NCBI GenBank assembly: GCA_017962235.1
Contig: JAGCVS010000013.1
Span: forward strand, 1 to 54,417
DNA length: 54,417 bases
From: Bacteroidales bacterium
GTDB taxonomy: Bacteria; Bacteroidota; Bacteroidia; Bacteroidales; UBA932
Direction: 5' to 3'
The position numbers were made by a program, and so were the translations under genes. This document shows, one piece after another, positions 16,431-54,417 of the stretch. The notes below the pieces were generated by a model. That model did not search any database. It was given only the letters and a program-made list of their open reading frames with translations, and was not told where the DNA came from. Numbering within the stretch: the stretch's first letter is position 1; the number at the start of each line of letters is the position of its first letter.

Positions 16431-16461
16431 CAAAGGTAGGGGTTTTTATTGATTCCCCAAA
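16431..16461 (-). promoter_or_regulatory. Promoter of tRNA-Ser
   Basis: On the reverse strand, TTTG (16458-16461) and TACCTTTG (16431-16438) are separated by 19 bases, the spacing expected for the Bacteroidota -33/-7 promoter. Ten bases separate the box from the tRNA 5' end. Confidence 0.8.
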
Positions 16462-45489: not shown

Positions 45490-45514
45490 CATGGTTCAAA
45501 ACGGACATTCAGTT

Positions 45515-46390
45515 ATGAAACAGATACATTTGATTATGATTTCGCTCGCGGCGGCGCTGGTGTGTGCCTGCGGGCCTGCGGTGGATGCCAACCTTGAAAT
45601 GGCAGACGGCAGCGACGGCCATCTGGAGTATACCAATGCGCGTCAGACCATAGCAGTCAAGATAAACAGCAACACCTCCTGGAAGGCCGTCTCCGATGCC
45701 GACTGGCTGGTGGTGGAGACCGCCAAGGGAGAGGCTGGCGAGGATGTCGAGATTCAGTTCACCCTTGCCCCGAACGCCGATTATGCATACCGCGACGCTA
45801 TCATAACCGTAACTGCCGGCAAGGCGACATTGCAGATATACGTAACCCAGCAGCCGCAGCTGTTATACCTTATCAATGAGAATTTTGACAGCGAGGATCT
45901 GATTATGGAGGCGACCTTCACCAACGGCTGGTACGGAGACAACAACGCCGCTCTGGATGTGGACGGCGATGGGTTTGGATGGAGACGCATAAAGGACACG
46001 GAGACCGGCATGACATACGCTTATTCCTGCTCTTATCAGGAAGATCTGGACAGGATTCTGAGCCCCGACAACTGGCTGGTATCGCCCCGCGTCACCATTC
46101 CCGCAACCGGCTTCCTGCTGCGCTGGGATGCCAAGGGTTATGACCCGGATCCGCAGTATCTGGGCGATAAATACGAGGTTTACATTGCAGATTATGATGA
46201 TGGTCAGCCTCTGCAGCTGCTCTCAAAAGTGTGCGAAGAGGTTACCACCAGCGCAACCCGGCTCACCTCCCACAAAATAGAGCTGGACGCTTACGTGGGG
46301 CGCCGCATATGCCTCGCTTTCCATCATTATGAGTCTTACAACCTGAGCAAGGTGATGATAACCAACGTGGAGATCTCCAACAGGCGGTAG
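45515..46390 (+). CDS. BACON-domain lipoprotein with choice-of-anchor J-like domain
   Basis: A 291-residue surface or periplasmic lipoprotein. The signal ends in lipobox LVCAC (about residues 15-19). A BACON (carbohydrate-binding-associated) domain follows (about 30-112, with NTSWKAVSDADWLVV and the C-terminal ITVTAGKATLQIYVTQ). The rest (about 115-291) has NENFDSED, DNWLVSPRVTIP and LAFHHYES, which fit a cleaved-adhesin/choice-of-anchor J jelly roll. It probably binds a glycan or protein; no catalytic residues are evident. The ATG at 45515 was chosen for the signal peptide. Confidence 0.8.
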   Translation: MKQIHLIMISLAAALVCACGPAVDANLEMADGSDGHLEYTNARQTIAVKINSNTSWKAVSDADWLVVETAKGEAGEDVEIQFTLAPNADYAYRDAIITVTAGKATLQIYVTQQPQLLYLINENFDSEDLIMEATFTNGWYGDNNAALDVDGDGFGWRRIKDTETGMTYAYSCSYQEDLDRILSPDNWLVSPRVTIPATGFLLRWDAKGYDPDPQYLGDKYEVYIADYDDGQPLQLLSKVCEEVTTSATRLTSHKIELDAYVGRRICLAFHHYESYNLSKVMITNVEISNRR

Positions 46391-46393
46391 TGT

Positions 46394-46843
46394 ATGGGCA
46401 AGGCGCAGAGCACGGTGGTGATAAAGAACAGGCGGGCTTCCTTCGACTACGAGTTCATTGAGAAGTTCACCGCCGGCATCGTGCTTTCCGGTACAGAGAT
46501 CAAGTCCATCCGGGCCGGGAAGGCCTCTCTGGTGGACGCCTACTGCTACTTTGTGAACGGCGAACTGTATGTGCGCAACATGAACGTTGCGGAATACTGG
46601 TGGGGCAGCTACAACCGGCACGACCCCAAGCGGGACCGCAAGCTGCTGCTCACAAAGCGCGAACTGCGGCGGCTGCAGCGCGCCACCCGCGAGAAGGGCA
46701 TGACCATAGTTGCGGTGCGCATCTTTATCAGCGAAAAAGGGTATGCGAAACTCGATATTGCGCTGGCCCGCGGCAAGCGGGAGTTCGATAAACGGGAAAC
46801 CATCAAGGAGAAGGACCTGAGAAGAGAAATGGAGAGGAAATAA
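46394..46843 (+). CDS. smpB: SsrA-binding protein
   Basis: Partner of tmRNA in ribosome rescue. The protein is 149 residues with a central beta-barrel ([32 protein letters not shown] as the leading part) and a basic C-terminal tail ([17 protein letters not shown]) that enters the ribosome mRNA channel. The tmRNA gene itself is not in the window. It starts 3 bases after the BACON gene. The terminator stem begins inside its last codons. Confidence 0.95.
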
Positions 46844-46856
46844 TCCTCTCTTTTTT
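46832..46856 (+). terminator. Terminator overlapping the smpB stop codon
   Basis: GAGAGG (46832-46837) pairs with CCTCTC (46845-46850) around a 7-base loop that contains the TAA stop, followed by six T residues. Confidence 0.82.
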
Positions 46857-46892
46857 CTTTATGGTATGAGTGTTTTTTCCATTAAAAATGCT

Positions 46893-46900
46893 TAAATTTG
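46893..46900 (+). promoter_or_regulatory. -7 box (TAAATTTG) of the oxidoreductase-DUF1080 operon
   Basis: A perfect TAnnTTTG element, giving a leader of about 70 bases before the ATG at 46974. The -33 region is T-rich (TGTTTTTTCC) without an exact TTTG. No operator is recognised. Confidence 0.65.
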
Positions 46901-46973
46901 ACAGATATTGAAGCGAAACCAGCCGAAATATCAGCTAACAGATTTTATATCAGTTAAATAACAATAAAACGAC

Positions 46974-48242
46974 ATGACAAGCAGAAGACAATTCCTCAAG
47001 GGAACAGCGGCTGTGGCTGCGTTCACCATCTTGCCGCGCCACGTGCTCGGCGGTAAAGGCTACATCGCTCCCAGCGACCAGCTCACAAAGGGTATCATCG
47101 GCTTCGGCGGCATCGGCCGCGGCCATCACTTCCACATGCCCGACCGCCTGGTTGCAGTTTGCGATGTTGACCAGACCCGTCTGGACAGGGGCGAGAGAAT
47201 GGCCAAAGAGGCCGGATTCGGCCAGGTAGCCTGCTACCACAACTTCATGGACCTTATCCATGACCCCAACGTGGACATCGTACACGTCTGCACCCCGCCT
47301 CACTGGCATGCAATTATGTCCATAGAGGCAGCCAAGGCAGGCAAGGATGTATGGTGCGAAAAACCCATGACCCGTACCATCGGCGAGGGCAAGAGGGTTG
47401 TTGAGGCGATGAAGCGCTACAACACCATTTTCCGTCTGAATACCTGGTTCCGCTTTGAGGATACCTTCTACGGTCTCGGCACCGAGGTGGCTCCCCTCAA
47501 GAAACTCGTGAACAGCGGCCTGCTGGGCTGGCCCCTCAAGGTCACCGTTTCCAAGCATACCGGTTTCGACTGGAAGTTCTTCTGGGTAGGTAAGGAGCAT
47601 CTGGATCCCCAGCCCATCCCCGAGTACTTTGACTATGACATGTGGCTGGGTCCCGCACCCTACAAGCCGTACAACGAGCACCGCTGCCACGACACCTTCC
47701 GCGGTTACTGGGACTACGATGCCGGCGGACTTGGCGATATGGGTCAGCACTATCTCGACCCCGTACAGTACCTGCTTGGCAAGGATGACGAGAGCCCCGT
47801 TAAGGTTGAGATCGATGCGCCTCAGCAGCACTACGACGCTGCCGGCACATGGCGTGAGATTAAATACACCTATGCAGACGGCTGCCAGATAGTTCTCTGG
47901 GGAGAGGACTTCGGCGATCCCAAGACCCCTTATATCCAGGGCCCCAACGGAAACGTATACAACAACTTCGTATGCGATATCCCCGGCTGGAAAGACAAAC
48001 TCGCAGACTTCCCCGATCCGCTGCCTCAGGAGACCGATTTCCTGGAGTGCGTACGTACCCGCAAGAAATTCGCCCTCAACGAGATCAACGGCCACCGCAG
48101 CTGCACCCTGGTCAACATCGGTGCAGTGGCACTGCAGTTGGGCCGCACCCTCTACTTTGACTCCGACAAGCAGGAATTCATCAACGACGATGCCGCCAAC
48201 CGTCTGGTTTACCAGCCTATGCGCGCGCCTTGGAAACTCTAA
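46974..48242 (+). CDS. Tat-exported Gfo/Idh/MocA family oxidoreductase (first)
   Basis: NAD(P)-linked dehydrogenase of 422 residues. A twin-arginine signal, SRRQFLKG, occupies residues 3-10, followed by a hydrophobic stretch (AAVAAFTILP), so the folded protein is exported. The Rossmann glycine motif is GFGGIGRGHH (about residues 43-52). The family motif CEKPMT (about 125-130) carries the catalytic lysine region. In the suggested pathway, such enzymes oxidise the 3-hydroxyl of a glycoside. It opens the operon, 18 bases before the large DUF1080 gene. Confidence 0.88.
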   Translation: MTSRRQFLKGTAAVAAFTILPRHVLGGKGYIAPSDQLTKGIIGFGGIGRGHHFHMPDRLVAVCDVDQTRLDRGERMAKEAGFGQVACYHNFMDLIHDPNVDIVHVCTPPHWHAIMSIEAAKAGKDVWCEKPMTRTIGEGKRVVEAMKRYNTIFRLNTWFRFEDTFYGLGTEVAPLKKLVNSGLLGWPLKVTVSKHTGFDWKFFWVGKEHLDPQPIPEYFDYDMWLGPAPYKPYNEHRCHDTFRGYWDYDAGGLGDMGQHYLDPVQYLLGKDDESPVKVEIDAPQQHYDAAGTWREIKYTYADGCQIVLWGEDFGDPKTPYIQGPNGNVYNNFVCDIPGWKDKLADFPDPLPQETDFLECVRTRKKFALNEINGHRSCTLVNIGAVALQLGRTLYFDSDKQEFINDDAANRLVYQPMRAPWKL

Positions 48243-48260
48243 TCATCGGGAGGAATCAAC

Positions 48261-51149
48261 ATGAAAAAGATACTTAAAAGTTTACTGATAGTTGCGCTGC
48301 TGTTCGTCTGCGTTGGTGTTCAGGCACAGCCCAATCAGCGTAAAGCCAGCACCATAGTGGGCGACGCCCTGGCAAAGTTCCCCGCAAAGGACATGAAGCT
48401 CTACAACGAGCTTGCAACCGAGCTTCTGGGCACCGGCCAGGAGGGTATGGACCTGCTCTACAACATGCTGGAGAAGCAGGACGACTCTATGGTTCCCGTT
48501 GAGTTCGCCCTTAGCGCCATCACCACCAAGGCATCCGAGGTGGGCGGCGAGACCCTTGAGAATGTAAAGAAGGCATTCAAGGGCTATGCAGACAAAACCA
48601 AAGACGAGACCATCAAGCAGCTTTTTGTGCGCCAGCTCCTTTTCCTGGGAGAGAATTACGACGGCAAGAATGTCACCACCTCTTCTGAACTGGATCCCGG
48701 CACCACTCCGGAGCCCAAGGTGAAGGATATCGTAAAGAGCCTCAAGAAGGGTGTGGACAATGTCACCCTGTTCGATATGCTCAACAAGGTGAAGGATGTG
48801 GCTGCAGCCAAAGAGGCTATCGTGACAGCCCTTCCCAAGGTGAAGAGCAACGACAACAAGGCTGACCTTCTCTGGTGGCTGGGTGAGCAGAAAGACAAGG
48901 CTCTCTCCAAGACCTTCAAGTCATATCTTTCAGATCCCGACGCACGCATCCGCAAGGAGGCTGCATGGGCACTCACCAAATCGGGCTGCGGCTGCGCCCT
49001 GCCCGCAATGGCCAAGATGCTCACCAGCAGCGACGAGGGTGATGTGGCTGTGGCAGAACAGTGCCTCCGCTGCCTCCCCGGCAAGGTTGCCGACGTTGTG
49101 GCTCCGTATTACGACAAGGCGGGTGCTGCCGGCAAAGCAGCCATCCTGAACCTTATCGGCCAGCGCGAGTCCGAGATCAACAAGGATCTTGTTATGGGCA
49201 GCCTGTTTGACGATGCCAAGGGTGTGGGTGACGCAGCTTTCGCAGCACTGCCGGCTGTGGCAGAGCGCGAAGATCTGCAGACCCTCTTCTCCCTGCTTGA
49301 GAGCAGCAGCGAAGACAACCGCGCCAAGATCCAGGACGCTATCCTGGCGGCAATGGAGGGTATGACAGACGCTGAGAAGCTGGAAGTTCTCACCAACCGC
49401 AACAACATCGTGACCCCGCTGAGCAGGACCTACTACTGGCCCATGATCCTGAAGGTGGCCAACATATCCCAGGTAGCAGGCTTCATCAACAAGAATGCAG
49501 GCGACAAGGCATTTGTGGAGATGGCAGTTCCCCAGTACATCGTTAAGGTGGAGACCCTGGGCGAGCCCGGTCCCCAGCGCCTGCTCCGCTACCGCGAGAT
49601 TATGGACAACGTCTGGAAAGATGAGCAGAAGGGTCTGATTCTGGACTGCATAGGCAACACCGGCGCATTCCAGGGCATCATGTTCGCTGCCAAGTATCTG
49701 GACAACAAGGCAACCGAGGTTCCCGCAGCCAACGCAATCCGCAAGATTGCCACCAGCAACCCCAACTACTACGGTCCTCAGATCATAGAGGTGATGAACC
49801 GCATCAAGGGCGTGGACACCGGCCGCGACTATCCTTACGATCTGCAGCGCATTGAGAATTATCTGGCTGCTGCTCCCAAGGACGACCCCGGTTATGTATC
49901 CATGTTCAACGGCAAGGACCTCACCGGCTGGCAGGGCATGATCCCCACCAACGAGTGGGGTGAGGGCAACCCCTACCTCCGTTACAAACTCTCTCCCAAG
50001 CAGCTCGCCGCAGCACAGGCTAAGGCCGACAAGGTTATGGCAGAGAACTGGGTTGTGGAGAACGGCAACATAGAGTTTGTGGGCCACGCATACGACAACC
50101 TCTGCACCACCAAGAAGTACAAAGACTTTGAGATGTATCTGGACTGGAAGATTTATCCCGGTCAGAGAGAGGGCGATGCAGGTATCTATCTGCGTAGCTG
50201 CCCTCAGGTACAGATATGGGACACCGCCCGCGTATGGGTAGGCGCTCAGGTGGGCAGCGGCGGTCTGTATAATAACCAGAAGACAGAGCGCATCCCTCTG
50301 GTTATCGCAGACAACGCGGTTGGCGAGTGGAACAGCTTCTACATCAAGATGCAGGGCGAGCGCGTAACCGTTCTGCTGAACGGCCGCCTGGTGGTAGACA
50401 ACATCGTGCTTGAAAACTACTGGGACCGCAGCCTCCCTATTCCTGTTGAGGAGTTCATCGAGCTGCAGGCACACGGCAGCCGCATCGCATACCGCGACCT
50501 CTATATCCATGAGCTTCCCAGCCAGGAGCCTTCAAAACTCACTCCTGAAGAGGAGGCAGAGGGCTTTGAGATGCTGTTCGACGGTACCAGCCTGCACAAG
50601 TGGCACGGCAACAAGGTGGATTACAACGTCAAGGACGGTGTAATCGCAGTTGAGAGCCGCAGCCGCGGCGGCAGCTGGATCGGCGACCTGTATACCAACG
50701 ACGAATATGCAGATTTCATCTTCCGCTTTGAGTTCAAGCTCACCCCCGGCGCCAACAACGGCGTGGGTGTGCGTTCTCCCGGCGAGGGCGACTCTGCATA
50801 CGTTGGCTATGAGGTTCAGATCCTGGATCACTACAACGACATCTACAAGGGCTGGCTGGCACCTTATCAGTACCACGGCTCGCTCTACGGCATTATCCCC
50901 GCCAAGAACCGCGATGCCCTCAAACCTGTGGGCGAGTGGAACAGCGAGGAGATTTACATGAAGGGGAGCTACATCCGCGTGACCGTTAACGGCCAGGTTG
51001 TCACCGAGGGTGACATTGTGGAGGCTTCCAAGAACGGCACCATAGACGGCAACGAGCACCCGGGCCTGAAGCGCACCAGCGGTTACATCGGCTTCCTGGG
51101 TCATGGCGACCGTCTGTGGATCCGCAACGTCCGCGTAAAACGCCTTTAA
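48261..51149 (+). CDS. HEAT-repeat and double DUF1080 fusion (3-keto-glycoside hydrolase-like)
   Basis: An exported protein of 962 residues. The signal peptide is about 1-22 (ending VQAQ). An alpha-helical region with HEAT-like repeats spans about 30-530. Two DUF1080 (3-keto-disaccharide hydrolase, lectin-like beta-sandwich) domains follow, at about 543-751 (starts SMFNGKDLTGWQG) and 766-962 (starts EMLFDGTSLHKWHG, ends IRNVRVKRL). DUF1080 proteins have been reported to cleave 3-keto-glycosides. Both copies keep the GDAGIYLRS or NNGVGVRSP core. One may be catalytic and one binding. The fusion is in operon with the two oxidoreductases; the cleaved bond is inferred. Confidence 0.85.
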   Translation: MKKILKSLLIVALLFVCVGVQAQPNQRKASTIVGDALAKFPAKDMKLYNELATELLGTGQEGMDLLYNMLEKQDDSMVPVEFALSAITTKASEVGGETLENVKKAFKGYADKTKDETIKQLFVRQLLFLGENYDGKNVTTSSELDPGTTPEPKVKDIVKSLKKGVDNVTLFDMLNKVKDVAAAKEAIVTALPKVKSNDNKADLLWWLGEQKDKALSKTFKSYLSDPDARIRKEAAWALTKSGCGCALPAMAKMLTSSDEGDVAVAEQCLRCLPGKVADVVAPYYDKAGAAGKAAILNLIGQRESEINKDLVMGSLFDDAKGVGDAAFAALPAVAEREDLQTLFSLLESSSEDNRAKIQDAILAAMEGMTDAEKLEVLTNRNNIVTPLSRTYYWPMILKVANISQVAGFINKNAGDKAFVEMAVPQYIVKVETLGEPGPQRLLRYREIMDNVWKDEQKGLILDCIGNTGAFQGIMFAAKYLDNKATEVPAANAIRKIATSNPNYYGPQIIEVMNRIKGVDTGRDYPYDLQRIENYLAAAPKDDPGYVSMFNGKDLTGWQGMIPTNEWGEGNPYLRYKLSPKQLAAAQAKADKVMAENWVVENGNIEFVGHAYDNLCTTKKYKDFEMYLDWKIYPGQREGDAGIYLRSCPQVQIWDTARVWVGAQVGSGGLYNNQKTERIPLVIADNAVGEWNSFYIKMQGERVTVLLNGRLVVDNIVLENYWDRSLPIPVEEFIELQAHGSRIAYRDLYIHELPSQEPSKLTPEEEAEGFEMLFDGTSLHKWHGNKVDYNVKDGVIAVESRSRGGSWIGDLYTNDEYADFIFRFEFKLTPGANNGVGVRSPGEGDSAYVGYEVQILDHYNDIYKGWLAPYQYHGSLYGIIPAKNRDALKPVGEWNSEEIYMKGSYIRVTVNGQVVTEGDIVEASKNGTIDGNEHPGLKRTSGYIGFLGHGDRLWIRNVRVKRL

Positions 51150-51191
51150 GACAGCAATAATCCAATAATACACAAACAATAAATCAAGATT

Positions 51192-52694
51192 ATGAGTAAA
51201 AACATGTCAAGAAGGTCTTTCCTTCAAACAAGTGCGATGGCAGCAGGCGCAGCTATGGTTGCGGCTCCCATGTTCAGCACAAGTGCAGCTGCAGCAGAAC
51301 CCAAAAAAGAGAAGAAGAAAGTTGCAGCTACCGATAAGCTGAATATCGTGGGCGTCGGTATCGGCGGCCGCGGTGCTGCTGACATCAACGGTATGGCATC
51401 CCAGAACATCGTTGCACTCTGCGACTGCGACTGGAACTATGCTGCCGGCGAGATGTCACGCTTCCCCAATGCAAAGAAGTACAAAGACTATCGTAAGATG
51501 TTCGATGAGATCGGCAACGAGTTTGACGCTGTGGTAGTAGGTACCGCAGACCATACTCATGCCTGCATCGCAGCAGCTGCCCTTGCAATGGGCAAGCATG
51601 TATACTGCGAGAAGCCTCTGACCCACACCGTTTACGAAACCCGCCTGCTTACCAAGCTGGCTAAGGCTAACGGTCTTGCAACCCAGATGGGTAACCAGGG
51701 CGCATCCCTGAACTCTACCCGTCAGGTAATCGAGGCAATCCAGAGCGGCCTCATCGGTGAGGTTCGCAAGGTGGACGCTTTCACAGACCGTCCCATCTGG
51801 CCACAGGGCCTGGAGACCCCCGCAGGTGTAGATCCCATCCCCGACACTCTTGACTGGGATATCTTTATCGGTCCTGCAAAGTACCGTCCGTTCAACACCA
51901 TCTATCACCCTTGGAACTGGCGTGGCTGGTGGGACTTCGGTACCGGCGCACTGGGCGATATGGCTTGTCACATCCTGCAGCCCGTTGTAGACGCCCTCAA
52001 GCTTGGTTCACCCATCTCCTGCCAGGGTAGCTCTACCAACCTGATGATTGACTGCGCACCCAATGCACAGATCGTTAAGTTCAAATTCCCCGCTCGTGAC
52101 AACATGCCCAAGGTTGGTATGCCCGAGGTTGAGGTTACCTGGTACGACGGCGGCCTGAAGCCCGACTTCCCCGCTGGCTGGCCTATCGGCAGGAACATGA
52201 ACCAGAGCGGCGGCGCCGCTATCTTCTACGGAACCAAGGACGTTCTCGTTTGCGGTTGCTACGGCGTTAACCCTTGGCTGCTCTCCGGCAAACCCATCCC
52301 CGCAGCTTCCGTTACCCGCGAGGTTGAGAACCAGGACCACCATGCAGACTTCATCCGCGCTTGCAAGGAGTCCAAGGAGAACCGCGTACCTTGCAAATCT
52401 GACTTCCAGTTTGCAGGCCCTCTGAACGAGATGGTTGTTATGGGTGTCCTCGCAGTACGTCTGCAGGGCCTCAACCGCGAGCTCGCATGGGATGGCAAGA
52501 ACATGAAGTTCACCAACATCAGCCCCGCAGAGACCATCCAGTTCAAAGTTAAGGACGGCTTCAGCGTTCACGACGGTCACCCGACATTCGAGGACAAGTA
52601 CACCGATCCTATCAATGCACAGGCTTTCGCAGCAGAGCTTATCAAGCACACCTATCGTGAGGGTTATGACCTGCCCGCAATGCCGCAGATTTAA
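51192..52694 (+). CDS. Tat-exported Gfo/Idh/MocA family oxidoreductase (second)
   Basis: A 500-residue NAD(P)-linked dehydrogenase with a twin-arginine signal, MSRRSFLQ (residues 4-11, after MSKN), and an alanine-rich membrane stretch. The Rossmann motif is VGVGIGGRGAADI (about 53-65), and the lysine motif is CEKPLT (about 140-145). It is about 80 residues longer than the first copy, from a larger C-terminal domain (GAAIFYGTKDVLVCGCYG). Codons favour GCA, GTT and GCT strongly, like rpsB and tsf. The 42-base gap before it and 21-base gap after it keep it in the operon. Confidence 0.9.
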   Translation: MSKNMSRRSFLQTSAMAAGAAMVAAPMFSTSAAAAEPKKEKKKVAATDKLNIVGVGIGGRGAADINGMASQNIVALCDCDWNYAAGEMSRFPNAKKYKDYRKMFDEIGNEFDAVVVGTADHTHACIAAAALAMGKHVYCEKPLTHTVYETRLLTKLAKANGLATQMGNQGASLNSTRQVIEAIQSGLIGEVRKVDAFTDRPIWPQGLETPAGVDPIPDTLDWDIFIGPAKYRPFNTIYHPWNWRGWWDFGTGALGDMACHILQPVVDALKLGSPISCQGSSTNLMIDCAPNAQIVKFKFPARDNMPKVGMPEVEVTWYDGGLKPDFPAGWPIGRNMNQSGGAAIFYGTKDVLVCGCYGVNPWLLSGKPIPAASVTREVENQDHHADFIRACKESKENRVPCKSDFQFAGPLNEMVVMGVLAVRLQGLNRELAWDGKNMKFTNISPAETIQFKVKDGFSVHDGHPTFEDKYTDPINAQAFAAELIKHTYREGYDLPAMPQI

Positions 52695-52715
52695 AGATTA
52701 ACACCATTAAGAATT

Positions 52716-53477
52716 ATGAAGAGAATATTTGCATTGGCAGCCATCTGCCTTATGGTGCTCAGCCTGAGCGCTTGCAAGAACAACAAGAAGAAAGCTGCCG
52801 ACGCTGCTGCAGACGATGCTGTGGCAATCTTTGACGGCGAGACCTGGGAAGGCTGGCGCGGTTATCTTACCGACCATGTTCCTGGTGCCTGGACCATCGA
52901 GGACGGTTGCATCAAGATCAACGGCTCCGGCCGCGGTGAGGCTGGTGCAGTTGACGGCGGCGACATTATCTTCGCAGCCAAGAAGTTCAAAAACTTTGAG
53001 TTCACTTTCGAGTGGAAGGTTTCCGAGGGTGCAAACTCCGGTGTATTCTTCCTGGCACAGGAAGTTCCCGGCATCTCCATCTATCAGACCTGCCCCGAGT
53101 ACCAGATCCTTGACAACGAGCGTCACCCCGATGCCAAACTGGGTCGCGACGGCAACCGCCAGAGTGCTTCCCTGTATGACATCATCCCTGCAAAGCCGCA
53201 GAATGCTAAGCCCGCAGGTGAGTGGAACACCGCCAAGATCATGGTTTACGAAGGCACCGTTGTTCACTATCAGAACGGCGAGCCCGTTGTAGAATATCAC
53301 CTTTGGACTCCCAAGTGGGAGGAGCTGATCAACAACAGCAAGTTCTCCCAGGCTAACATGCCCGAGTCCTATGAGTATATCCTCAACGTAGGTGGCGAGA
53401 ACCACGAGGGTTACATCGGCCTCCAGGACCACGGCGACACCGTTTGGTATCGCAACCTCAAGGTTAAGGAACTCTAG
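52716..53477 (+). CDS. DUF1080 lipoprotein (3-keto-glycoside hydrolase-like)
   Basis: A 253-residue single-domain DUF1080 protein. The lipobox is SLSAC (about residues 14-18). The domain spans about 38-253, starting AIFDGETWEGWRG and containing ENFEFTFEWKVSEGANSGVFFLAQE-like core (GANSGVFFL), YQILDNERHPDA, and ending WYRNLKVKEL. It is probably outer-membrane or periplasmic. As a partner of the Tat-exported dehydrogenases, it could cleave the 3-keto-glycosides they make. It is the last gene, followed by a strong terminator. Confidence 0.9.
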   Translation: MKRIFALAAICLMVLSLSACKNNKKKAADAAADDAVAIFDGETWEGWRGYLTDHVPGAWTIEDGCIKINGSGRGEAGAVDGGDIIFAAKKFKNFEFTFEWKVSEGANSGVFFLAQEVPGISIYQTCPEYQILDNERHPDAKLGRDGNRQSASLYDIIPAKPQNAKPAGEWNTAKIMVYEGTVVHYQNGEPVVEYHLWTPKWEELINNSKFSQANMPESYEYILNVGGENHEGYIGLQDHGDTVWYRNLKVKEL

Positions 53478-53490
53478 TCTTAACCCAAAC

Positions 53491-53528
53491 AAAAAATCAG
53501 GACCGCCAGCCGACGGTCCTGATTTTTT
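53491..53528. terminator. Strong bidirectional terminator
   Basis: A perfect 15-base stem (53491-53505 with 53514-53528, arms AAAAAATCAGGACCG and CGGTCCTGATTTTTT) with an 8-base loop has T-runs on both strands. It ends both the DUF1080 operon and the convergent pgk gene. Confidence 0.95.
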
Positions 53529-53544
53529 ATATGCTTGTTGGTGA

Positions 53545-54417
53545 TTAGCCCTGGATAGCTGCGATGCCGGGGAGGACTTTGCCCTCGAGGTATTCGAGCA
53601 TTGCGCCGCCGCCGGTGGATACGTAGCTTACCTTGTCGGCATAACCCATCTGGGTAACTGCTGCAACGCTGTCGCCGCCGCCCACAAGGGTGAATGCGCC
53701 CTTATCGGTGGCCTCTTTAAGGGCCTGTGCAATGGCGTTGGTGCCCTTTGCAAAGTTGGGCATCTCAAACACGCCAACGGGGCCGTTCCAGAGGACGGTC
53801 TTTGAGGCGAGGATTACTTCGCGGAACTTAGCCACGGTCTCGGGAGCTGCATCCACACCCTCGTACTCGTCGGGGATATTGTCAGAGGGGCAGATAACGG
53901 TGTTGGCATCGTTGCTGAATGCGTCAGCTGCCACAACGGTGTCGGAGAGATAAACCTTCACACCTTTCTTGCGAGCCTCACTGAGCACGTTGAGGGCAAC
54001 GTCTTTCTGATCCTCTTCGCTGAGGGACTTGCCAATCTTGCCGCCCAGAGCCAGTTTGAAGGTATAAACCATACCGCCGCCGATAATCAGGTTGTCCACC
54101 AGGTCCAGCAGATGGGAGATGATACCGATCTTGGAGGATACCTTGCTGCCGCCGATGATAGCGGTGAGGGGACGCTGGGGAGATTCCAGTACGGTGTTGA
54201 TGGCCTTGATCTCACCTTCCATCACATAGCCGAACATCTTGTCGTTGGGGAAGTATTCAGCGATGAGGGCTGTGGAAGCGTGTGCGCGGTGTGCGGTGCC
54301 GAATGCATCGTTGATGTAGCAGTCTGCATAAGAAGCGAGCTTCTTCACAAACTTTTTCTGGCTGGCCTTTACAACAGCCTTGGCAGCCTTCTTCTCTTCA
54401 TCTGTAGCGTCTGCTGC
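53545..54417 (-). CDS. pgk: Phosphoglycerate kinase, C-terminal part (5' end outside window)
   Basis: Glycolytic ATP-forming kinase; 290 C-terminal residues are present, ending in a TAA-type stop at 53545. The open frame continues to the window edge, so a GTG at 54346-54348 is internal rather than the start. Signatures are [22 protein letters not shown], the hinge and [42 protein letters not shown] and the C-terminal [14 protein letters not shown], which binds nucleotide phosphates. About 100 N-terminal residues are missing. Confidence 0.96.

Follow-up and report, generated by a model that had tools for sequence, protein, structure and literature searches.

The operon at positions 46974-53477 of the window, the 54,417-nucleotide stretch of DNA of a Bacteroidales bacterium that we analysed, presents a known pathway in a new arrangement, together with a conserved, uncharacterised and probably accessory module. 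The known part is genes 3 and 4; the worthwhile part is genes 1 and 2, a conserved module built around a HEAT-tandem-DUF1080 protein, and a literature search found no paper that assigns a function to it. Oxidative cutting of sugars by bacteria can open bonds that resist normal glycosidases, such as those of glucosinolates. We consider it likely that its products form a system of the cell envelope that cleaves glycosides without hydrolysis and consists of two fused modules, of which module I (genes 1 and 2) would extend module II (genes 3 and 4). This proposal draws on homology, domains, conserved residues, gene order and co-occurrence, from which we infer all of the chemistry, the partnership and the location of the proteins. 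Since genes 1 and 2 are directly amenable to knockout or purification, the reach of the pathway can be tested.

The four open reading frames all lie on the + strand between smpB (assigned by PF01668) and the convergent pgk, with intergenic gaps of 18, 42 and 21 bases in gene order. The features are:

46831-46851, + strand: terminator-like hairpin, weaker than the one after gene 4, that ends smpB and borders the operon upstream; a T run follows its 8-pair stem
46974-48242, + strand: gene 1, 422 aa, Gfo/Idh/MocA dehydrogenase of an uncharacterised subfamily with Tat-type export
48261-51149, + strand: gene 2, 962 aa, secreted; HEAT solenoid plus two DUF1080 (3-keto-disaccharide hydrolase) domains
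48342-49880, + strand: gene 2, HEAT-type helical solenoid (aa 28-540; PF13646), nearly all helical in the model
49887-50510, + strand: gene 2, DUF1080 domain A (aa 543-750), which retains H738 and has Gln (Q649) at the position of the motif Glu
50562-51146, + strand: gene 2, DUF1080 domain B (aa 768-962), which retains E851 and H948
51192-52694, + strand: gene 3, 500 aa, glycoside 3-dehydrogenase with Tat-type export, the same type as BT_2158 and Alistipes AL3
52716-53477, + strand: gene 4, 253 aa, DUF1080 lipoprotein, BT2157-type 3-keto-glycoside eliminase/hydratase
53491-53528, unstranded: intrinsic terminator, strong and symmetric, that separates gene 4 from the convergent pgk; hairpin of 15 pairs, -21.7 kcal/mol, z -7.22

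Genes 1 and 3 pass Pfam cut-offs as Gfo/Idh/MocA proteins and genes 2 and 4 pass that of PF06439 (DUF1080, a family currently named 3-keto-disaccharide hydrolase), bearing out the original prediction of a compact four-gene operon in which the two kinds alternate. The strong terminator of that prediction was recovered as the hairpin downstream of gene 4; the scan that yielded the hairpin at the end of smpB ran near chance level (9 such sites vs. 7.6 expected). The single promoter that it also proposed was not confirmed, as a sigma-70 scan of 45500-54417 performed near chance (7 found vs. 4.8 expected) and the Bacteroidota TTTG/TANNTTTG pattern gave 0 matches upstream of gene 1 and 3 elsewhere in the window. 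All four genes are under purifying selection when compared with five relatives (dN/dS 0.02-0.23 overall; gene 1: 0.02-0.10; gene 2: 0.13-0.23; gene 3: 0.06-0.11; gene 4: 0.05-0.18).

On the NCBIfam model NF058561 (BT_2158_fam, glycoside 3-dehydrogenase), gene 3 scored 785.8 bits against a cut-off of 750, covering 1-487 of 487, and its PDB matches 8tdf (E 2e-208) and 8tdh (E 3e-207) carry titles that name AL3, the glucoside-3-dehydrogenase of Alistipes, in one case with bound trehalose. Gene 4 scored 164.6 bits on PF06439 (cut-off 26.8) and matched 3osd, 8rr2 and 8tda with E values near 1e-98; the titles of its structural matches name BT2157, a 3-keto-glycoside eliminase/hydratase and a 3-keto-2-hydroxy-glucal-hydratase, and the closest is BT2157 (3osd). 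We assign genes 3 and 4 to the known Bacteroides route, gene 3 for passing the BT_2158 cut-off and gene 4 for having BT2157 as its nearest match. The literature describes BT2158 as a glycoside 3-dehydrogenase of the periplasm whose deletion mutant fails to grow on trehalose, leucrose and palatinose (PMC11300592), and according to a review the in vitro conversion of glucosinolates requires BT2158 plus BT2156 or BT2157 (PMC12385236). On raffinose-family sugars, mutants in BT2157 and BT2158 are reported to grow without a defect (PMC11501099), which weakens the case for a broad role of this route. Among relatives of gene 4, H239 was present in 15/15 readable sequences and E128 in 16/16. In the alignment, 9fbe has Asn at the His of the gene 4 QDHGD motif; judged from its residue numbers, 9fbe would be the H275N variant of a B. 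theta lyase, which is reported to be hydration-deficient (PMC13273386). We take the HG-motif His of the DUF1080 domains to correspond to H275 of the B. theta enzyme, and gene 4 retains this His, as do both domains of gene 2.

Gene 2 scored 264.7 bits on PF06439 (cut-off 26.8) over two stretches (132.4 for domain A and 145.4 for domain B when scored singly), and because it has two such domains the operon carries three. Its predicted structure has a mean pLDDT of 85.6, and the closest Foldseek match is BT3469 (PDB 4jqt), aligned over residues 543-962. The HEAT solenoid is poorly conserved (median identity 27% to 76 relatives); domain A has a median identity of 64.5% and retains both H738 (77/77) and Q649 (77/77), and domain B retains its His in 76/76 readable sequences. 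The motif Glu, which is the Glu of E-x-Q-x-x-D and putatively catalytic, occurs in most aligned solved members, in gene 4 (16/16) and in domain B (77/77); domain A alone lacks it. The original prediction of two exported DUF1080 proteins is thus right about PF06439 in genes 2 and 4, but it overlooked the solenoid and second DUF1080 domain of gene 2 and the lipoprotein signal of gene 4; its concern whether these domains keep their active-site residues is settled favourably for the catalytic His in all three, but not for the motif Glu, which is Gln in domain A.

Gene 1 scored 464.2 bits on PF19051, 74 bits on PF01408 and 26.9 bits on PF10518, and its residues E129-K130-P131, D255 and H259 are at least 90% conserved among 26 aligned sequences. 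It is remote from characterised enzymes (best solved relative E 7e-24), and with 141.9 bits it stays well short of the NF058561 cut-off of 750, so that it is only a distant relative of the BT_2158 family. On NF058563 (BT_2159 disaccharide 3-dehydrogenase; cut-off 650), gene 1 scored 25.2 and gene 3 scored 22.6 bits.

Tat signals on both dehydrogenases, as originally predicted, were confirmed by signal models, relatives and genome content. The gene 1 signal passes PF10518 (26.9 vs. a cut-off of 22.7) and lies just below the cut-off of TIGR01409 (16.6 vs. 16.7), and the gene 3 signal passes TIGR01409 (17.5) and lies just below PF10518 (21.9). A Tat-like R/K-R motif occurs within residues 1-60 in 70/74 relatives of gene 1, two of the 4 exceptions being truncated by contig ends, and in 15/15 relatives of gene 3. 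TatC is encoded in the same genome (E 9e-63), and both proteins thus combine a twin-arginine signal with a genomic TatC. By eye, gene 4 starts with a putative lipoprotein signal (LSLSAC) and gene 2 with a putative Sec-type signal.

A scan with gene 2 returned 118 relatives, and the best 80 loci were kept for gene-order counts. Among these best 80 of 118, gene 1 lies immediately 5' of gene 2 in 78/78 readable loci, a number that includes fragmented copies of gene 1 (L060, L082) and some contig-end cuts; in the other 2 the contig begins inside gene 2, so that gene 1 is unreadable. The four-gene order is present in 13 of the same 80 loci (L015-L025, L030 and L044), complete or cut solely by contig ends, all of them in Bacteroidales MAGs whose titles mostly carry ruminant names. 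One further locus (L029) has genes 1-3 until the contig ends, and another (L028) has genes 1, 2, 4 and a fifth gene and lacks gene 3. At 12 examined places where gene 3 is unlinked to gene 1 (L111-L122), gene 4 was adjacent in 12/12, and at three further places (L125-L127) genes 1 and 2 occur without genes 3 and 4 nearby. Judged by these arrangements, the operon consists of two separable modules, genes 1-2 and genes 3-4, and the four-gene fusion is lineage-specific, alongside one reversed fusion in which genes 3, 4 and 5 precede genes 1 and 2 (L091). Conservation of the four-gene order, on which the original prediction depended, was therefore found in close relatives but gives way beyond them to the separate modules.

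When 28 gene 3 proteins were placed in a tree, the fused order fell mostly in a single clade, together with one unfused genome of the same genus (G014), at weak support; L091, a long branch, fell in a separate clade. Because the reversed fusion sits in a different gene 3 clade, the modules were probably joined at least twice. The module of genes 1 and 2 is itself conserved throughout Bacteroidales, cultured species of Parabacteroides and Bacteroides included. In 11 loci, some of them from these two genera, it is directly preceded by another TIM-barrel gene, whose start is signal-like (cluster c6; the one example examined is PF01261).

Relatives of the fused locus carry a fifth gene that the window lacks:

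53478-53544, + strand: site of gene 5 (exported TIM-barrel lipoprotein) in relatives, empty here and in L019, from tblastn and intergenic sequences

Gene 5, a TIM-barrel protein with a lipoprotein-like start, follows gene 4 in 11/12 fused relatives with readable downstream sequence, a count that takes two loci (L023, L025) up to the contig end, while L022 ends before the site. It also lies within 1.4 kb of the unlinked gene 3 in 10 of the 12 places examined. Between gene 4 and pgk of the window there is no such gene, the terminator and pgk coming directly after gene 4, and the genome gave a single match to the gene 5 query, of 35% identity and on a different contig. The fifth gene appears to have been lost from this operon. 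Solved relatives of gene 5 are 8tct, 8tcd and 8tcs (E 2e-50 to 1e-48), which we take to be 3-keto-glycoside lyases. Their accession numbers are near those of the AL3 entries. Loss of gene 5 need not break the route, because relatives of gene 4 perform both elimination and hydration, as the title of 8rr2 states.

Genes 1 and 3 share genomes more often than expected. In an order-level sample of 148 genomes (completeness floor 90%; gene 1 threshold E 1e-100), gene 1 was found in 12 and gene 3 in 35, and 12/12 genomes with gene 1 also had gene 3, with 2.8 expected (hypergeometric 6e-9); counted by family, the same held for 11/11 families with gene 1. The two genes sit in separate operons in 11 of these 12 genomes, the window's own genome being the sole one with a shared operon. 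Among 59 genomes of the window's family (E 1e-60), gene 1 was found in 13 and gene 3 in 23, the latter including two genomes with just a distant paralogue. Gene 3 of at least 58% identity accompanied gene 1 in 11 of the 13; in G032 (84% complete) and G038 (85% complete), gene 1 is present and the sole gene 3 is a 37% paralogue. Among the 40 family genomes that are at least 90% complete, gene 3 was present in 7/7 with gene 1. A control family of GH109-like exported Gfo/Idh proteins, found in 11/148 genomes, co-occurred with gene 3 in 8/11 and with gene 1 in 5/11, and the difference between 12/12 and 8/11 was not significant (Fisher p 0.09). Because the control is enriched too, part of the association reflects the gathering of such genes in the same genomes. 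Most genomes that carry the module of genes 1 and 2 also have the known pathway, and since this module is found nearly always in genomes with module II, it probably extends module II. The original suggestion that the four genes act together has gained from this co-occurrence, within the limit set by the control, and from the reversed fusion.

In the scheme that we propose, gene 3, Tat-exported and presumably with NAD bound, would oxidise C3 of a glycoside, and the gene 4 lipoprotein would eliminate the aglycone or partner sugar, then hydrate the 2-hydroxy-3-keto-glucal; a dehydrogenase would reduce the resulting 3-keto-sugar, restoring the cofactor. Genes 1 and 2 would be a second dehydrogenase/DUF1080 pair of like kind. 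Gene 1 would most likely take glycosides that gene 3 refuses, or perform the reductive step; domain B of gene 2 would cleave its product, domain A, with Gln for Glu, would serve substrate binding or one half-reaction, and the HEAT solenoid would hold substrate or partners. Exported C3 oxidation followed by DUF1080 cleavage, the core of the original prediction, is well supported for genes 3 and 4 by their close relation to characterised enzymes; for genes 1 and 2 we infer it. The lack of a 3-keto-sugar reductase, which had seemed a puzzle, weighs less because a published scheme assigns this reduction, on preliminary evidence, to an oxidoreductase of the Gfo type (PMC10628242).

Genes 1 and 2 could instead form a second full pathway for another substrate class, independent of genes 3 and 4 and merely sharing their transcript, an alternative that we take seriously and place a little short of an even chance. 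Each pair does hold a dehydrogenase and a DUF1080 protein, the pairs stand apart elsewhere (genes 1-2 at L125-L127, genes 3-4 at all of L111-L122), and in seven loci SusC/SusD-like genes (clusters c13 and c14, assigned by position and sequence start only) lie nearby. An independent pathway would not need gene 3, however, and gene 1 without gene 3 was seen in 0 of the 148 order-sample genomes; the probable joining of the modules at least twice also speaks against independence. The nesting of gene 1 in genomes with gene 3 would suit a single pathway of two steps, in which one dehydrogenase oxidises the glycoside and the other reduces 3-keto-glucose while the DUF1080 proteins divide elimination and hydration. 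The Gln of domain A could then mark a half-reaction, and in the Agrobacterium operon one dehydrogenase is described as oxidising and a Gfo oxidoreductase, on preliminary evidence, as reducing (PMC10628242). Yet 23 of the 35 genomes with gene 3 are without gene 1, which therefore cannot be a required step, and gene 4 relatives already carry out both elimination and hydration; we regard this division of labour as rather unlikely.

That gene 1 and the HEAT/DUF1080 protein are non-catalytic, being structural or glycan-binding, with genes 3 and 4 as the only enzymes, strikes us as improbable. An accidental grouping without functional meaning would fit the confinement of the four-gene order to one lineage (13/80 loci, best 80 of 118), but we consider it very improbable: smpB adjoins the fused loci in 11/11 with readable upstream sides, across a range of synonymous divergence (0.2-1.3 for the five relatives that were compared), purifying selection acts on all four genes, and a second, reversed fusion exists. 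Downstream, pgk was found within the available sequence in six fused loci (L016, L019, L020, L021, L024 and L030). A more specific version of the reading of genes 1 and 2 as an extension of the known route, which we put forward tentatively, is that they are an accessory module so far unrecognised in the 3-keto-glycoside pathway of Bacteroidales, comprising a dehydrogenase and a HEAT-scaffolded tandem eliminase/hydratase with specialised Glu and Gln active sites, that would handle substrates or products beyond those of genes 3 and 4, possibly in a solenoid-held complex.

Among known systems, the operon can be compared with B. thetaiotaomicron BT2156-BT2160, a 3-keto route for glucosinolates and disaccharides, with which it shares a gene 3 of the BT2158 family and a gene 4 closest to BT2157. 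Relatives of the window, and not the window itself, also carry the exported TIM-barrel fifth gene, the kind as which BT2156 is annotated (PMC10434189). The window operon differs in having neither this TIM-barrel gene nor a BT2159-family gene (gene 1 reaches 25 bits against 650) and in having the added module with its HEAT-tandem-DUF1080 protein. The Alistipes AL1-AL3 pathway, reportedly the subject of a 2024 paper by Nasseri et al. in Nature, has counterparts of gene 3 in AL3 (8tdf/8tdh) and of gene 4 in AL2 (8v31, E 8e-94); the type of gene 5 (8tcd/8tct/8tcs relatives) is missing from the window, where genes 1 and 2 are extra. BT3469 (4jqt) has two consecutive DUF1080 domains as in gene 2, but its solved chain has no HEAT solenoid and its sequence matches gene 2 at just E 2e-24. 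The Caulobacter 3-ketolactose route likewise couples periplasmic C3 oxidation to a DUF1080 protein, whose role was proposed from mutant fitness, but its LacABC is described as a three-component membrane-bound dehydrogenase, in contrast to the Tat-exported Gfo/Idh/MocA proteins of the window (PMC9007349). Finally, the Agrobacterium GlycDH-AtOGE-AtHYD operon is reported to follow the same course of oxidation, elimination, hydration and reduction with two oxidoreductases and two lyase/hydratases, but its lyase and hydratase are of the sugar-phosphate-isomerase type, AtOGE having a TIM-barrel fold, rather than DUF1080 proteins (PMC10628242).

Comparison of the window with L019, a relative's locus that also lacks gene 5 (the TIM-barrel lipoprotein-like gene that follows gene 4 in other relatives), revealed 93-95% identity from gene 4 through the terminator (52700-53900, in 400-base steps), as against 68-92% across genes 2-3 (400-base steps). 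Similarly, dS between the two was 0.19 for gene 4 and 0.51-0.68 for genes 1-3. Since the gene 4-terminator stretch is closer to L019 than genes 2-3 are, and gene 4 dS is lower, the sequences hint that the gene 5 deletion spread by recombination. Another relative departs naturally from the dehydrogenase/DUF1080 pairing: its operon (L028:1-4979) contains genes 1, 2, 4, and 5 without gene 3.

Elsewhere in the window, the gene directly before smpB (45491-46390) encodes a putative lipoprotein that combines BACON and Cleaved_Adhesin domains. The promoter-like TTTG-N18-22-TANNTTTG has three exact matches in the window (at 16431, 19100, and 31844; chance expectation 0.23).

Three further loci lie in the window's own genome:

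C9:27600-30000 (L095), a second DUF1080 protein adjoining a Gfo/Idh protein
C6:111363-112406 (L107:10364-11407), a TIM-barrel protein, lipoprotein-like, with 8tcd/8tcs among its relatives
C7:72000-84000 (L100), a row of Gfo/Idh, AP_endonuc_2, and NapC/NirT-cytochrome genes adjoining a rhamnosidase

At L095, the DUF1080 protein has a lipoprotein-like start, its Gfo/Idh neighbor is Tat-like and 37% identical to gene 3, and GH92 and other glycosidase genes flank the pair. The C6 TIM barrel ends in a cysteine-rich C-terminal tail. The L100 row, which may be an oxidation unit that is exported and has an outlet for electrons, encodes Gfo/Idh and AP_endonuc_2 proteins that each have a signal-like start, together with a sulfatase-modifying-factor domain fused to a NapC/NirT cytochrome. 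The nearest match of the AP_endonuc_2 protein is 3kws, followed by 6wn6, a 3-keto-D-glucoside 4-epimerase.
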